This document shows positions 51,741 to 58,456 of a stretch of DNA of 64,000 nucleotides, in pieces. The stretch's first letter is position 1. The number at the start of each line of letters is the position of its first letter. The stretch covers positions 1 through 64,000 of the forward strand of contig JADLFO010000326.1 of the NCBI GenBank assembly GCA_020845455.1. Direction: 5' to 3'. Under the pieces are notes generated by a model. The model did no database searches. It was not told the DNA's origin and was given only the letters and a program-made list of their open reading frames with translations. A program made the position numbers and the translations under genes. The DNA comes from Caldilineaceae bacterium (GTDB lineage Bacteria; Chloroflexota; Anaerolineae; Caldilineales; Caldilineaceae).

Positions 51741-53906
51741 GTGAACGAGGTATCGCAGGCGCTGATCGCAAACCTGTTGCTGGTCTATTTCTTCTATGGG
51801 TTGGCCTTCTTTACGCTGGGCGTGGCGCTGGCGCTGGCAAGCCGCCAGGAGTCGGAGTTCCATTTTGTCGAGGCCATTCGTCCGCTGAGCGCGTTTGGCC
51901 TGCTCCATGCGGCGCATGAATGGGTCGAGATGTTTCAGCAGTTCCGGCTGCGCAGCACGGGCGTGACGCCATCGGCGGCGGAGGAATGGCTGCGGCTGGC
52001 GGTGCTGGCGTGGTCGTTTGCCATGTTGGTCTATTTTGCCGTGCTGCTGCTGGCGGGGCCATCGGCGCGGCGTTGGCCTGTGGTCGCGGTGGTCGTCGGC
52101 GCGGCGGCGCTGTGGGCGGGAGCCAGCGCGGCGGTGGGGCGCGTCTATGGGTTTGCTGCGCCGGAGACATTGGCGGCAGCGGATGTCTTGGCGCGCTATC
52201 TGTTGGGGATTCCCGGCGCGCTCTTGGGCTGTTGGGCGCTGATGGTGCAGCAGCGCACGTTTCGCCGCTTTGACATGCCACAGTTTGGCCAGGATCTGGT
52301 TTGGTCGGCGACGGCGCTCTTTCTCTATGGCGCGGTGGGCCAGATCTTCGTGCGCACCTCGCCGATTCCGCCCAGCGGCATCCTCAACAGCGGCCTGTTT
52401 CTGCTCTGGTTTGGCGTCCCGATCCAGCTTTTCCGTGCGTTGACGGCGCTGGTGTTGACCTTTTTTATGCTGCGCGCGCTGCAGGCGTTTGGCGTGGAAA
52501 ATCAACGGCGGCTGGATGCTGCCGTGCAAACGCAACTGGCGGCGCAAGAGCGCGCGCTGACTATCGAACGACAGAGCCTGCAGGAGACGGAACGCCTGAA
52601 CCAGGAGCTGCATGCGCGGGCGCGCGAATTGGCGCTGCTGCTCGACCTGTCCAATCTGCTGGCGGCGCCTGCCGGCTTGTCCAGCCGGCTGGAACAGGCG
52701 TTGCGCCAGGTTGTGCAGAATCTCGGCTTTGCCGATGCGGGCATGGTTCTGTTGGGAACACCAGGGGATGCGGCGCCTGCGGTGGCGGCGCAGACGGGCT
52801 TTGCCACGCAGAATCCGCTTGTACCGGGAGCGCGCTATGCGCCGGCTTGGGAACTGGGGCGGCGTGCCCTGCAATCGGGGCGGGCGCTGTGCCGCCACGC
52901 CGACGGGACGGTGATCGAGATCGACCTGGATGCGGTGTTGGTGGGCAAGGAATGCTGGCAGCATATCATCCCGACCGTGACGATTGCGCTGCCGCTGGCG
53001 GCGCAGCAGGACGCCATCGGCGCGATTGTGTTGGCGCGGGCGAAGGGGGTTACGCAGCCGTTGGGGCTGGCCGACGTGCGTCTGCTCTCTGGGATCGCGC
53101 AACAGATGGGTTTGTCGATCGAAAATGCGCGGCTCTATCAGGACGCTCAGCGGCGCGAGCGGGTGTTGGGTGAACTGCTGTATCAGGTGGTGGGCGCGCA
53201 GGAGGCGGAGCGCCAGCGCATCGCCCGTGACCTGCATGACGCCACCGGCCAATCGTTGAGCGCGATTGGGTTGGGGCTGCGCGGGCTGGAGAATGCATTG
53301 GCGGAGCATGGCCTGCCCCATTCTGTGCAGTTGCGCGCCATCCAGTCGTTTGCCAACGATGCAATGGTGGAGTTGCGCCGTATCATCGAGGACCTGCGCC
53401 CGCCGCAACTGGACGAGTTGGGGCTGGCGCCGGCGCTCCGCTGGTATTTCCGCACGTTCCAGGCGCGCTATCCGGAGATCGCGCTGCGCTTTGAGGTGCA
53501 AGATGAGATGGCCCGGCTATTGCCTGAATATGAGACCTTGCTCTTTCGTATCGTTCAAGAGGCGTTGACCAATATCGCCAAACACGCCGATGCACGCAAC
53601 ATCGAAGTGGGGTTGGATATTGCACCTGAGGAGTTGATGATCTATATCTCGGACGATGGGATCGGGTTCGACGCCGAGGCGGTGATGGGCGGTCGCTCTC
53701 CAGGTTGGGGACTGGTGGGGATCCGGGAACGCACCCAGTTGTTGGGCGGCGAGTTGCAGATCCGGTCGCAGCCAGGGCGTGGCACGGATGTCACCGTGCG
53801 GATGCCGGTGCGGCCCAGCATGGCCCAGCCGGCGTTGACCGGCACACAACCAACGGAGGGGGGAGAGGATGGCAAGCGAGCGGATTCGCCTGCTGCTGGT
53901 GGATGA
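51741..53906 (+). CDS. NarL-type membrane sensor histidine kinase with GAF domain
   Basis: Polytopic N-term; ERQRIARDLHDATGQSLSAIGLGLRGLE; ISDDGIGFD...GWGLVGIRERTQLLGGEL. Confidence 0.92.
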   Translation: MNEVSQALIANLLLVYFFYGLAFFTLGVALALASRQESEFHFVEAIRPLSAFGLLHAAHEWVEMFQQFRLRSTGVTPSAAEEWLRLAVLAWSFAMLVYFAVLLLAGPSARRWPVVAVVVGAAALWAGASAAVGRVYGFAAPETLAAADVLARYLLGIPGALLGCWALMVQQRTFRRFDMPQFGQDLVWSATALFLYGAVGQIFVRTSPIPPSGILNSGLFLLWFGVPIQLFRALTALVLTFFMLRALQAFGVENQRRLDAAVQTQLAAQERALTIERQSLQETERLNQELHARARELALLLDLSNLLAAPAGLSSRLEQALRQVVQNLGFADAGMVLLGTPGDAAPAVAAQTGFATQNPLVPGARYAPAWELGRRALQSGRALCRHADGTVIEIDLDAVLVGKECWQHIIPTVTIALPLAAQQDAIGAIVLARAKGVTQPLGLADVRLLSGIAQQMGLSIENARLYQDAQRRERVLGELLYQVVGAQEAERQRIARDLHDATGQSLSAIGLGLRGLENALAEHGLPHSVQLRAIQSFANDAMVELRRIIEDLRPPQLDELGLAPALRWYFRTFQARYPEIALRFEVQDEMARLLPEYETLLFRIVQEALTNIAKHADARNIEVGLDIAPEELMIYISDDGIGFDAEAVMGGRSPGWGLVGIRERTQLLGGELQIRSQPGRGTDVTVRMPVRPSMAQPALTGTQPTEGGEDGKRADSPAAGG

Positions 53907-54522
53907 CCATCAGATTGTGCGGGCTGGGCTGCGGATGTTGTTCGCCGCCGAGCCGGATATGGAGATCGTCGCCGAGGTGGGCAGCGGTCTCGAAGCCTTG
54001 GAGGCGGTGGCCGCGGTGCGGCCCGACGTGGTGATCATGGACGTGGCGATGCCGGGCATGAACGGCATCGAAGCGACGCGCAAGATCAAGGAACTGGACC
54101 CCAATGTGACGGTGCTGGCGCTGACGATGCATGAGGATGAGCAATACTTCTTCCAAATGTTGGATGCCGGCGCGTCGGGCTATATCCCAAAACGGGCTGC
54201 GCCGGACGATCTCGTGGCGGCGGTACGGGTGGTGGCGCAGGGCAATGTGTTTTTGCATGCGACCCTGGCGCGCTTCTTAATGCATGATGTGCTGCAGCGC
54301 GGCGGCCCGGAGACCCATGAGGAGGATGCGCTCTCGGCGCGGGAGCGCGAGGTGTTGACCTTGACGGCAGAAGGCATGACCAGCCGCGAGATCGCGCAGC
54401 GGCTGGTCATTAGCCCAAAGACGGTGGATCGGCATCGGGAGAACATCATGGCTAAGCTGAACCTGCACAGCCGAGCCGAACTGGTGCGCTATGCCATTGA
54501 GCGCGGCCTACTCAATGCCTAG
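53869..54522 (+). CDS. NarL/FixJ-family response regulator
   Basis: RLLLVDDHQIVRAGLRMLFAAEPDMEIVAE; LSAREREVLTLTAEGMTSREIAQRLVISPKTVDRHRENIMAKL; overlaps the kinase stop. Confidence 0.95.
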   Translation: MASERIRLLLVDDHQIVRAGLRMLFAAEPDMEIVAEVGSGLEALEAVAAVRPDVVIMDVAMPGMNGIEATRKIKELDPNVTVLALTMHEDEQYFFQMLDAGASGYIPKRAAPDDLVAAVRVVAQGNVFLHATLARFLMHDVLQRGGPETHEEDALSAREREVLTLTAEGMTSREIAQRLVISPKTVDRHRENIMAKLNLHSRAELVRYAIERGLLNA

Positions 54523-54539: not shown

Positions 54540-54929
54540 TCAGTCGCCCGCCAGGGTGGCGGCGGTATGGCCGGTCGCAAAGATCGAGCAGCAGCGGCAG
54601 CCGCCGGTGAGCCGGCCATCGCAGCGCAGGCGGGCCAGCCAGCAGGGGAGTTCGGGCTGGAGATAGGCGGGGCACTTGTCACGCACTTGCTCGGGGCAAG
54701 CCCGATAGACCCAACAGGGTTCGCCGATGATGCGGCTGTGGGCGTCAATGGCGCGCGCGGCGGGGGTATCTGTGGGGGAAGTGGCGATCACCGGCGCTGC
54801 GCCGCGCCATTTCACGTCCAGCCGGTAGAGCCACCAGGCCACGCCTGCGGTGATGAGAAACGGCACGCCGAAGCGCAGCAACGCAATTCCGATCAGGACA
54901 AGGAGTTCGACGAACTGTGGGCTGGGCAT
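54540..54929 (-). CDS. Small membrane protein (RFGVP motif) with Cys-rich C-terminus
   Basis: MPSPQFVELLVLIGIALLRFGVPFLITAGVAWWLYRLD... + CWVYRAC, C, C, C, GCRCC. Confidence 0.6.
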   Translation of the reverse strand: MPSPQFVELLVLIGIALLRFGVPFLITAGVAWWLYRLDVKWRGAAPVIATSPTDTPAARAIDAHSRIIGEPCWVYRACPEQVRDKCPAYLQPELPCWLARLRCDGRLTGGCRCCSIFATGHTAATLAGD

Positions 54930-54987: not shown

Positions 54988-56139
54988 TTAGTGCTGCTCG
55001 AACTTCACCAGATAGCGCATGGCGAGATACCAGACCAAGGCCACGCCCGACAAGATGCCGATGGTCGAAAGCCATTCAAGCAGGTGCGGTGAGTAGATGG
55101 CGGATTGGTTCCACGGGGGTGTTTGGCCGGTGAGCGTGGCGTTGAATCGATTCATGCCGACACCCAGGATGACCAAGAGCGGCGCCACCCACTGGACAAC
55201 GCTTTGGCGGCGCAGTTGGGGGATGAGCAGCAGGAAGAGCGGAATGAGCACGCCGACGATCACTTCGAGCCACCAGGCCGAAGTGACGTCGCTTGCTGCG
55301 AACAAGAGCGGGAGTTTGCCTTCCCACCAGAGCAGCCCCAGCTTGACCAGGAGATAGACGACGGCTGCGCCCCCCACGCCGACGCTGAGTCCAGTACAGA
55401 CGCCCAAGTCCTCGTCCTTGTTATGGATCCTGACGGTGATGCGGTAGACGACGATGGCGACGCTGAGACCGGCCATGACCGACGATGTGAAGAAAAGCAC
55501 CGGCATGAAGGGGGAATACCACAATGCATTCAACCGGTGAGGCATATTGACATAAAGCGTGCCCAGGGTGGATTGATGCAAGGTAGAGAGGGTCACGCCG
55601 ATGATGCACACGACCGGCATGATGGCGAGCGGGATGCGGCGCAGCCGCTGCCAACCCAGCCGGTCGAGGAGATCGGGGCTGACCTCGATGACCAGAACGG
55701 TTGCATAGAGCAGCACACACCAACAGATTTCAAACAGCGGCGAGTGCAGGTTCCAGTATAGGAGGAAGTTGTAGAAGCGGTCGGGACGGCCCAAGTCGAG
55801 TAGGAGCAGCATGAGCACAGCCACATAGCCCAGGAAGCCGGCAAACAGCGCAGGGCGAACCGCCGCTTCGAAGCGATGGAGATGTAGAATGTGACCGACG
55901 AAGGCCATAGTGAACCCGGCCCCTGAAAAGGCGATCAAAGCGAAGTCGAAACCGATCCAGACGCCCCAGGGGACGCTGTCGGTAAGCGAGGTCGTCATAC
56001 CCATCCCGGTCAGCAGACGGGTTACGCCTGCTACTACGCCGATCACCGTCAAGCCGGCAAGGATGCCCAGGACGGGAAAGGCGGTGGGGGGTGCAGATAG
56101 CTGCCAGGTCGGGCGGCGGTAGGTTACGGTGGTTGCCAT
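54988..56139 (-). CDS. NrfD/PsrC/HybB-like polytopic quinone-interacting subunit
   Basis: ~9 TM; VTRLLTGMGMTTSLTDSVPWGVWIGFDFALIAFSGAGFTMAFVGHILHLHRFEA; start MATTVTY at 56139. Confidence 0.88.
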   Translation of the reverse strand: MATTVTYRRPTWQLSAPPTAFPVLGILAGLTVIGVVAGVTRLLTGMGMTTSLTDSVPWGVWIGFDFALIAFSGAGFTMAFVGHILHLHRFEAAVRPALFAGFLGYVAVLMLLLLDLGRPDRFYNFLLYWNLHSPLFEICWCVLLYATVLVIEVSPDLLDRLGWQRLRRIPLAIMPVVCIIGVTLSTLHQSTLGTLYVNMPHRLNALWYSPFMPVLFFTSSVMAGLSVAIVVYRITVRIHNKDEDLGVCTGLSVGVGGAAVVYLLVKLGLLWWEGKLPLLFAASDVTSAWWLEVIVGVLIPLFLLLIPQLRRQSVVQWVAPLLVILGVGMNRFNATLTGQTPPWNQSAIYSPHLLEWLSTIGILSGVALVWYLAMRYLVKFEQH

Positions 56140-56167
56140 GGTTCGCTCCCAAGCGCGAGGTTTCAGG

Positions 56168-57082
56168 TTAAGCGTCGTGGCGGCCAGAAGCGTGCGCGGA
56201 GGCCGCAGCCAGTTCATGATGCCGCCGCGTGATCAGATGCAGCGAGGTCGCCAACGCGGCCATGCCTAAGGCGATGATAGGCGTGCTCTGCATGATGGAT
56301 TCGCCGTGTTCGGTAACGGGTCGGCCGTCGAGCACGGGAAAGCCAAGCTGGACAAAGGGGACAGCGGACAGATACAGATTGGATGTGCCGCCAGCTTCGA
56401 ATTCGCCATAGACATGGTCGACATAGCGACCTGGGTTCGTCTGTATCTGAGCGTGCGCCTGCGCCAGGAGGGCGGACCGTTTGCCAAAGCGCAGCGCGCC
56501 ATTGGGGCATGCTCCCACACAGGCCGGTGATTCACCGATGGCGATTCGTGTGGCACACATATCACATTTGTGGATCAGCCCGAGCGCGTTGTTCCACTCA
56601 TAGGTGGGCACGCCAAAGGGGCACGCGTATTGGCAGTAGCGGCAGCCGATGCACTTGGCGGAATCATAGACGACCGGGCCATTGGCTTGCTTGCGCAGCG
56701 CGCCAACGGTACAGGCGGATGCACAGGCAGGATGGAGGCAATGCATGCACTGGCGCTTGATCGCGATGTCGGCGAGCGAGCCATCGTGCAGGGTGATGGT
56801 CTTTCGCTCGAGGGCGCAGTAGGCGTCGCTTGAGAGGCGATCTGCGGCGACCGTGGGCTGGTTGCGGTTGTTGGCCTTTTTGCAGGCCAGCACACAGGAT
56901 TCACAGCCGGTGCAGCGGGTCAAGTCAATGAGTACGCCGTACGGTTCAATGGCGTCCGTGGTATCTGTGAGGCCGGTATTGGCCTGGACGGGGGTGAGTT
57001 GGCTGCTGACGGCGACCAAGCTCAAGGCTCCGGCTCCAAGCCCCTTGAGGAACGTCCGGCGCGAGGTGTTTGGCGAGGTCAT
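56168..57082 (-). CDS. HybA-like Tat-exported 4x[4Fe-4S] ferredoxin subunit
   Basis: SRRTFLKGLGAGALSLVA; CTGCESCVLACKKA, CMHCLHPACASAC, CIGCRYCQYACPFGVP, CDMCATR..CVGACPNGA. Confidence 0.92.
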   Translation of the reverse strand: MTSPNTSRRTFLKGLGAGALSLVAVSSQLTPVQANTGLTDTTDAIEPYGVLIDLTRCTGCESCVLACKKANNRNQPTVAADRLSSDAYCALERKTITLHDGSLADIAIKRQCMHCLHPACASACTVGALRKQANGPVVYDSAKCIGCRYCQYACPFGVPTYEWNNALGLIHKCDMCATRIAIGESPACVGACPNGALRFGKRSALLAQAHAQIQTNPGRYVDHVYGEFEAGGTSNLYLSAVPFVQLGFPVLDGRPVTEHGESIMQSTPIIALGMAALATSLHLITRRHHELAAASAHASGRHDA

Positions 57083-57084
57083 GG

Positions 57085-57927
57085 CTACTTTCTCCCCCAA
57101 TGATAGCTGCCGGCGACCAGCATGAAGACGATGCCGAGGATGCCGCCGATGCCAAGGCCGAAGCCGAGGTTGGCGGCGGAGAGCGTGGCAAAGTTGCGCG
57201 CGTCGCGACGGGTGTTCACGTTTTCAGAGGCCATCGTCTGTTCTGCAATAGGCTTGGTCGAGGCTGTCTCGGTGATGGCGACGGTCTCGCGGTGACAGTC
57301 GAGACAGTTTTGCCCAGAGACTGTGACAAAGTCGTGGCTGGGCGCAGCGGTGACTCCCATGGCGGGGTCCTGGCCGGCGACCATTTGCATGTGCGGTGTG
57401 TCGGCCAAGTGACAAGAGGTGCAGGTGACATCGCCCTGCCAATGGGCCGTGTGAAAAGGATCGTCCAGGGACTCGCGGTGACAGCTCTGGCACAGGGTTT
57501 CGTCGGTGAGACGGAGCTGCTGCGAGTGGGGTTTATGGCAGCTAATGCACTGCACACCCTCGCTGGCGTGATGGCTGTCGTCCCACTGGGCAAAGGTGTC
57601 GGCGTGGCAGTCTTGGCATGACGACGAGTCAACGCTGAGCGACATCGGCCCTTCGGCGGGATGACCTTTGACATACTCGCCGTGGCAGTCGACACAGGAT
57701 GCGCCGCCGGTTTCGCCGGCACTTTCCGGCGCAACAGTGCCGTGCGGGGAGATCTCCCAGGCTTCGCTCTCTTCCTGATGGCACGAGACGCAGGTTTCAG
57801 CGTCGTCGAGGGCGGGGGATTGGGCCAGGAGAGAGGATGGGGTCCAAGCGGAGAGACAGGCGGCCATCAAGCCGGCTGCCGCGATGCGGGCGACCCACAG
57901 GGTGAAATGGAACCGATTATAGTCCAT
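57085..57927 (-). CDS. Membrane-anchored heptaheme cytochrome c (cytochrome c3/NrfH-like)
   Basis: Seven CXXCH motifs (CVSCH, CVDCH, CQDCH, CISCH, CQSCH, CTSCH, CLDCH), signal peptide, C-term TM. Confidence 0.9.
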   Translation of the reverse strand: MDYNRFHFTLWVARIAAAGLMAACLSAWTPSSLLAQSPALDDAETCVSCHQEESEAWEISPHGTVAPESAGETGGASCVDCHGEYVKGHPAEGPMSLSVDSSSCQDCHADTFAQWDDSHHASEGVQCISCHKPHSQQLRLTDETLCQSCHRESLDDPFHTAHWQGDVTCTSCHLADTPHMQMVAGQDPAMGVTAAPSHDFVTVSGQNCLDCHRETVAITETASTKPIAEQTMASENVNTRRDARNFATLSAANLGFGLGIGGILGIVFMLVAGSYHWGRK

Positions 57928-57972: not shown

Positions 57973-58101
57973 TTACGCCTCGGGGTTGATGAGGCGCAGC
58001 ACTCGGCAGCAGGTCCAGGTAAGGGCTATAGGAATGCCGAAGCGGACAACGCCAATGGCGACAAGCATGCCGGCCACAAGTACGAGTTCATTGAGAGACA
58101 T
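57973..58101 (-). CDS. 42-aa small membrane protein with RFGIP motif (not in supplied ORF list)
   Basis: MSLNELVLVAGMLVAIGVVRFGIPIALTWTCCRVLRLINPEA*; GAGGGGGA upstream; related to the N-terminus of the 54540-54929 protein. Confidence 0.6.
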   Translation of the reverse strand: MSLNELVLVAGMLVAIGVVRFGIPIALTWTCCRVLRLINPEA

Positions 58102-58222
58102 GGTATCCCCCTCATGGTGGAGAACGTGTCGACATCAAGACCTGATATGACCATAGCACGGCGGCTATGCGCGGGCATCGGGGGGGCAGCCCAAGTTATT
58201 CCCATTTTGGAGTTTGGGCAGT

Positions 58223-58323
58223 GGGGAAATGCATATGGGTCGATATCCCAAGAGGAGGGTGAATCTCCCCAATGCGCGCCCGGCAGTTTGGGTGAAACCC
58301 CCAACCGGATGGGGAAATCTCCC
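58223..58323. promoter_or_regulatory. Phased cluster of related GGGGAAAT / GGGTGAAWCYCCC motifs
   Basis: 58223 GGGGAAAT, 58257 GGGTGAATCTCCCC, 58290 GGGTGAAACCCCC, 58311 GGGGAAATCTCCC in a divergent intergenic region. Confidence 0.5.
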
Positions 58324-58456
58324 ATTGACAAAGCGCCGATGGGGTGGTCATGCCGGCGGTTTACCCCTGAAGCCATTGTGATGTTACTCTTATGTATGCA
58401 ATGATCGTGTGTGTGCGATTGTGGTTGCAGCAACACCCATCAGAAGGATTGCAGAG

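Follow-up and report, generated by a model that had tools for sequence, protein, structure and literature searches.

A 42-aa open reading frame (ORF) that is passed over by ordinary gene finders forms the first gene of a minus-strand operon for a multiheme cytochrome, a 4Fe-4S protein, and an NrfD-like membrane subunit. This raises the questions of whether the ORF is a gene and what its product does in the window, by which we mean the whole stretch of 64,000 nucleotides that was analyzed. A preliminary description of the locus had given the position, strand, and 45-nt gap to the cytochrome gene exactly as we find them (Table 1). The RBS-like sequence that it reported is a Shine-Dalgarno-like element, and an AAAGGAG-like counterpart lies shortly 5' of the ATG in all nine of the other family members. 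It had also staked the gene on conservation of the ORF and of the motif RFG[IV]P at orthologous loci; that comparison was run, and conservation was found in 10/10 cases.

Table 1. Positions of the 42-aa gene, the operon that it heads, and neighboring elements in the window
Feature	Position	Strand	Remarks
Membrane histidine kinase (HisKA_3), conserved neighbor of the module	51741..53906	plus	
NarL/LuxR-type response regulator, conserved neighbor	53869..54522	plus	
Type II RGP-helix protein, 129 aa, TM helix and Cys-rich two-CW-like domain predicted to be cytoplasmic	54540..54929	minus	
NrfD/HmcC-like 10-TM quinone subunit	54988..56142	minus	Profile and AlphaFold model
Tat-exported 4Fe-4S protein, HmcB/HybA-like	56168..57082	minus	NF045715 HmcB, 250 bits; HybA model, 219 bits
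7-CxxCH multiheme c-type cytochrome, signal peptide and C-terminal TM tail	57085..57927	minus	
Type I RGP-helix protein, 42 aa	57973..58101	minus	Start ATG, stop TAA, read from 58101 down to 57973; precedes the cytochrome gene in 10/10 family members having the operon
Shine-Dalgarno-like GAGGGGGA of the 42-aa gene	58106..58113	minus	4 nt from the ATG
Putative extended -10 element (TGCTATGGT)	58150..58158	minus	10 upstream regions compared by eye
TGGG-N7-CCCA palindrome, putative operator copy 1	58236..58250	.	
TGGG-N7-CCCA palindrome, putative operator copy 2	58289..58303	.	
TGGG-N7-CCCA palindrome, putative operator copy 3	58310..58324	.	

When 46 genomes of the order were searched with the 42-aa protein, most matches were weak, but seven of them (E values of 1e-5 to 0.06) lay directly upstream of independently found orthologous cytochrome genes. 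Orthologs of the cytochrome (E < 1e-60) were found in 10 genomes of the family, the window included. When the DNA upstream of them was read, all 10 had an ORF of 42 to 43 aa with the motif RFG[IVL]P at the equivalent position, and one relative outside the family had an ORF there with the motif RLGVP. The length was 40 to 43 aa across the 10 family members and this relative. In an alignment of 11 members, which includes a lone copy from another genome of the family (L064, 44 aa), M1, R20, G22, and P24 were invariant and F21 was nearly so. Three pairs of moderate divergence had dN/dS ratios of 0.28, 0.36, and 0.36, indicating that the ORF is under purifying selection in these pairs; a very close pair (dN/dS of 1.13 at a dS of 0.10) carries little information, and synonymous sites were saturated in one further pair. 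Two longer overlapping ORFs, of 247 aa on the plus strand and 136 aa on the minus strand, were rejected as coding frames, as they showed no conservation, unlike the 42-aa frame. The very small size of the 42-aa ORF and the longer ORFs overlapping it on both strands could suggest a frame that is open by accident. However, conservation is confined to the 42-aa frame, about one in five of the genomes sampled from the class has a profile match, and the family HMM is free of decoy matches, so that the chance of a spurious ORF is negligible. The 42-aa ORF is a genuine, conserved gene, and a likely respiratory-complex subunit would escape gene calling at a 60-aa cutoff in many genomes.

The likeness noticed earlier between the 42-aa protein and the N terminus of the 129-aa protein encoded last in the operon proved to be homology, as the two helices were aligned profile to profile with an hhalign probability of 97% and an E value of 6.9e-11. 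The 42-aa and 129-aa proteins belong to one undescribed one-helix family, which we name "RGP helix" here. Its signature is R-[FLI]-G-[VLI]-P in the middle of the helix, and the family is defined by R-x-[GAV]-x-P and a predicted N-out/C-in orientation; the 42-aa protein of the window belongs to it by its invariant R20, G22, and P24, by the HMM, and by its charge asymmetry. The helix occurs in three forms: alone, in proteins of about 42 aa (type I); as the anchor of a two-CW-like protein that is rich in Cys (type II); and as an N-terminal fusion to NrfD. In type II proteins, it is followed by a conserved R-x-L-D-x-x-W stretch and then, in most cases, by a Cys-rich tail. The tail has the Cys/Trp pattern CW..C..C..CW..C..C in common with the two-CW domain (NF045718), but that model gave one match among 12 members, at an E value of 0.83 and below the curated cutoff, and the domain is not assigned. 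In the type II proteins of one genus (L052, L056, L057, and L058), the Cys-rich tail is lost and the helix remains with a short tail.

Lysine and arginine residues averaged 0.18 per copy before the helix and 2.30 after it in 116 copies, and the C terminus of the RGP helix is therefore predicted to be inside. A combined HMM built from 116 segments gave 166 matches of at least 20 bits in the examined loci, which is not an independent count because the model was trained on copies from the loci searched; the reversed-sequence decoys, which do test specificity, gave no match of at least 12 bits. Among 396 genomes of the class, 81 matched the type I profile at an E value of ≤0.05 and 102 matched the type II profile at an E value of ≤0.001, with the two profiles partly matching the same proteins and the weaker matches including false ones. 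In a wider sample of the phylum, type II matches were obtained in 23/350 genomes and included some clear ones from beyond the class (G418 and G560). The family is thus spread through a large, mostly uncultured class, both as a tiny gene and as a fusion to NrfD. No family was found for the 42-aa protein in Pfam, NCBIfam, or PHROGs; Pfam and NCBIfam gave nothing convincing for the type II family, and PHROGs gave nothing for the type II protein of the window. A PDB sequence search with the type I and type II profiles likewise returned nothing convincing, and the literature consulted, mostly outside subscription journals, described no NrfD-associated small protein for Chloroflexota.

We additionally compared the regions upstream of the operon. 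A TGGG(G)-N5-8-(C)CCCA palindrome, GATGGGG repeats, and a TGCTATTGT-like element are common to most family members 5' of the 42-aa gene, and an element similar to TGCTATGGT occurs at a like position in most family relatives. The palindrome was also present as TGGG-N5-8-CCCA (often TGGGG-N6-CCCCA) 5' of both the type I operons and the type II/second-cytochrome operons of L052, L054, and L056 to L059; these elements were compared by pattern and by eye. The palindrome is a candidate operator of the adjacent NarL-type regulator, which in turn is a candidate regulator of the operon. The upstream elements are consistent with a regulated operon that starts with the 42-aa ORF.

The NrfD-like subunit of the window scored 90.5 bits with PF03916 (cutoff, 25.8 bits), and its profile match, fold, and 10 TM helices, within the 8 to 10 expected, place it in the NrfD superfamily. 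Its AlphaFold model has 10 helices at a mean pLDDT of 84, and the best PDB matches of this model were to ActC of alternative complex III (TMq of 0.71 to 0.77). The nearest described complexes to the operon as a whole are Hmc and Nhc. Hmc of Desulfovibrio (HmcABCDEF) contains a multiheme cytochrome, the Tat/C-tail FeS protein HmcB, the NrfD-like HmcC, and the small hydrophobic HmcD (PMC10924467). The window operon likewise encodes a multiheme cytochrome, an FeS protein, an NrfD-like subunit, and a small hydrophobic peptide. However, its small-peptide gene precedes the cytochrome gene, whereas HmcD follows HmcC, and its cytochrome has 7 CxxCH motifs compared to 16 hemes in HmcA. The scores are below the curated NCBIfam cutoffs (250 versus 420 bits for HmcB and 217 versus 550 bits for HmcC), as is that of the 4Fe-4S protein with the HybA model (219 versus 263 bits). 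Neither HmcE (NarI-like) nor HmcF adjoins the operon, which is flanked by the convergent kinase/regulator pair downstream and a divergent GFO/IDH oxidoreductase gene upstream. Because of the heme number, the model cutoffs, HmcE/HmcF, and the small peptide, the operon falls outside the definition of Hmc.

ORFs of about 46 to 51 aa that resemble HmcD were found 3' of HmcC in L040, L041, L045, L047, and other loci. Homology to HmcD was rejected, as hhalign comparison of the two RGP-helix alignments with an alignment of the HmcD-like proteins gave probabilities of 0.25% and 0.17%; HmcD is an analogue of the 42-aa protein by size and operon only. Nhc of Desulfovibrio (NhcABCD) consists of a nine-heme cytochrome, an FeS protein, an NrfD-like subunit, and a fourth subunit, NhcD (PMC8076601). 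The window operon has the same four-part layout, with the FeS and NrfD genes directly after the cytochrome gene as judged by general rather than Nhc-specific profiles, but its cytochrome has 7 hemes instead of nine, and the likeness to NhcD is one of layout. A three-gene module of a C-tail FeS protein, a HybB-like protein, and an octaheme cytochrome has equivalents of the three large components of the window, but the accessible part of its description mentions neither RGP-helix proteins nor such NrfD fusions (PMC10924467). Another small respiratory protein, CydX, is a component of a quinol-linked oxidase with 37 aa and a single hydrophobic helix (PMC4325964 and PMC6005532). The likeness of CydX and similar tiny respiratory subunits to the 42-aa protein is an analogy with a different enzyme, and homology is not claimed.

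Type I genes were within 4.5 kb of an FeS or NrfD gene in 65/75 cases, within 350 bp of a multiheme cytochrome gene in 40/75, and within 4.5 kb of a regulator in 25/75, and type II genes were within 350 bp of a response regulator in 26/68; as the loci were partly chosen by small-protein matches, these counts are biased rates. To lessen this bias, 60 further loci were drawn from a class-wide NrfD profile search. An RGP helix was then scored within 4.5 kb of 70/117 NrfD entries, namely, 47/59 with an adjacent multiheme cytochrome gene versus 23/58 without one, with some of the negatives at contig ends. The 12/59 entries that have an adjacent multiheme cytochrome and no detectable RGP helix, some of them also at contig ends, indicate that the helix may not be universally required.

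The 42-aa protein could act as an assembly factor or membrane chaperone, giving transient help in the insertion or maturation of the cytochrome or NrfD and being absent from the finished complex. The type I gene does lie most often directly before the cytochrome gene, and a helper that is made early might well be encoded first in the operon. However, the helix is also present in modules without an adjacent cytochrome gene, and its covalent fusion to NrfD in 22 loci (see below) makes it a permanent part of the enzyme there; we consider a chaperone unlikely.

Even less probable is a role as a redox-signaling partner, in which the RGP-helix proteins would signal the state of the complex or of the quinone pool to the neighboring histidine kinase and the Cys-rich domain of type II would serve as a sensor or relay. 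The proximity of type II genes to response regulators would fit such a role, as would L158, L162, and other loci, where a type II gene adjoins a kinase/regulator pair and NrfD is missing from the vicinity. Type I proteins, however, are without a sensor domain, their genes track the cytochrome, FeS, and NrfD genes more than the regulator, and the fusions observed are to NrfD and none to a kinase. The type II genes beside a kinase/regulator pair without NrfD nevertheless indicate that type II may have another or additional, regulatory role. Three genomes of one genus (G051, G123, and G322) have type II matches and no NrfD among the listed matches at an E value of ≤1e-20, hinting at a separate signaling role.

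In 22/117 NrfD entries, from 22 loci in four families, the RGP helix lies inside the NrfD open frame, N-terminal to the core, and five of these 22 fusions contain two scored copies. On the NrfD tree, the fused label needs at the fewest three changes, two of which are forced by well-supported branches. The loop charges of the NrfD core predict an N-in/C-in orientation, and since the helix is C-in and the core N-in, direct fusion keeps both orientations. In the model of a double fusion, helices H3-36, H54-79, and H82-121 precede the ten core helices, and the extra predicted helix between the two copies (H54-79) keeps both RGP helices parallel. The added helices have low confidence (block pLDDT of about 57 to 74), so that the packing site of the helix is only proposed. 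A fold search with the fusion model gave NrfD-type chains (ActC and ActF) as the top matches, which do not inform on the added helices. The fusions favor the NrfD/HmcC-like subunit, rather than the cytochrome, as the partner of the RGP helix. They also bear on whether the small ORF, lying directly upstream of the cytochrome gene, is a leader peptide whose translation, and not its product, controls that gene. This explanation was set aside as very improbable because of the fusion of the equivalent helix to NrfD elsewhere and six loci in which the type I gene and the cytochrome operon are divergently transcribed (L131, L166, L173, L179, L222, and L233). The conservation of the amino acids amid synonymous drift argues against it as well.

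We consider it likely that the 42-aa protein packs against NrfD as an accessory TM subunit in a menaquinone:multiheme-cytochrome oxidoreductase like Hmc or Nhc. The earlier suggestion of a small assembly or anchoring subunit is retained in part: a small membrane subunit is well supported by synteny, the shared putative operator, and the NrfD fusions, and this subunit may help in assembly, anchor the cytochrome, or act as a structural or functional helix of the quinone subunit. The protein crosses the inner membrane once, with its N terminus predicted in the periplasm and its C terminus in the cytoplasm; an Arg lies within the membrane and is followed by a helix break at G-x-P. The periplasmic multiheme cytochrome and the Tat-exported 4Fe-4S protein would exchange electrons with menaquinone via the NrfD/HmcC-like subunit. 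The RGP helix would pack on NrfD, most likely beside the NrfD N-terminal helix, and may stabilize NrfD or help to shape its quinone or ion path, while the type II protein would supply a second copy of the helix with a cytoplasmic Cys-rich domain. The computations establish the conserved gene, the homology of the two terminal proteins, the NrfD fusions in other families, and the predicted orientation, and from these we infer that the separate peptide binds NrfD, what the complex does in electron transfer and in which direction, and whether the Arg has a role.

In many anaerobic respirations, it is the NrfD-type subunit that links the chemistry of quinones to the conservation of energy, by a mechanism that is not yet agreed on. 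The RGP-helix family is a direct, testable lead on an extra part of these enzymes. A broader proposal, which is tentative and which we would sooner doubt than accept, is that the RGP helix serves NrfD-type quinone enzymes as a modular, detachable membrane element, one that Hmc, Nhc, and alternative complex III lack. Each complex would contain about two to four copies (separate, tagged with the Cys-rich domain, or fused), and the Arg and G-x-P would lie in the ion or quinone path or tune the coupling.

The modules also varied in their cytochromes. A second multiheme cytochrome gene, mostly for 8 hemes, was found 3' of the type II gene in L052, L054, L056 to L059, L063, L067, and L129; no second multiheme cytochrome follows the type II gene in the window operon. 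In L151 (3357-4751) and L153 (171-1523), a gene for a 14-heme cytochrome comes after the RGP-helix gene, in place of that for a 7- to 8-heme one. A more distant RGP-helix ORF (L157, 7375-7569) adjoins a gene for a monoheme cytochrome c (Pfam Cytochrome_CBB3), with no NrfD nearby. NrfD-like frames of about 600 aa with six CxxCH motifs, apparently fusions of NrfD with a multiheme cytochrome, were found in L245 (3450-5291), L241 (4651-6453), L035 (5965-7830), and L037 (5965-7827).
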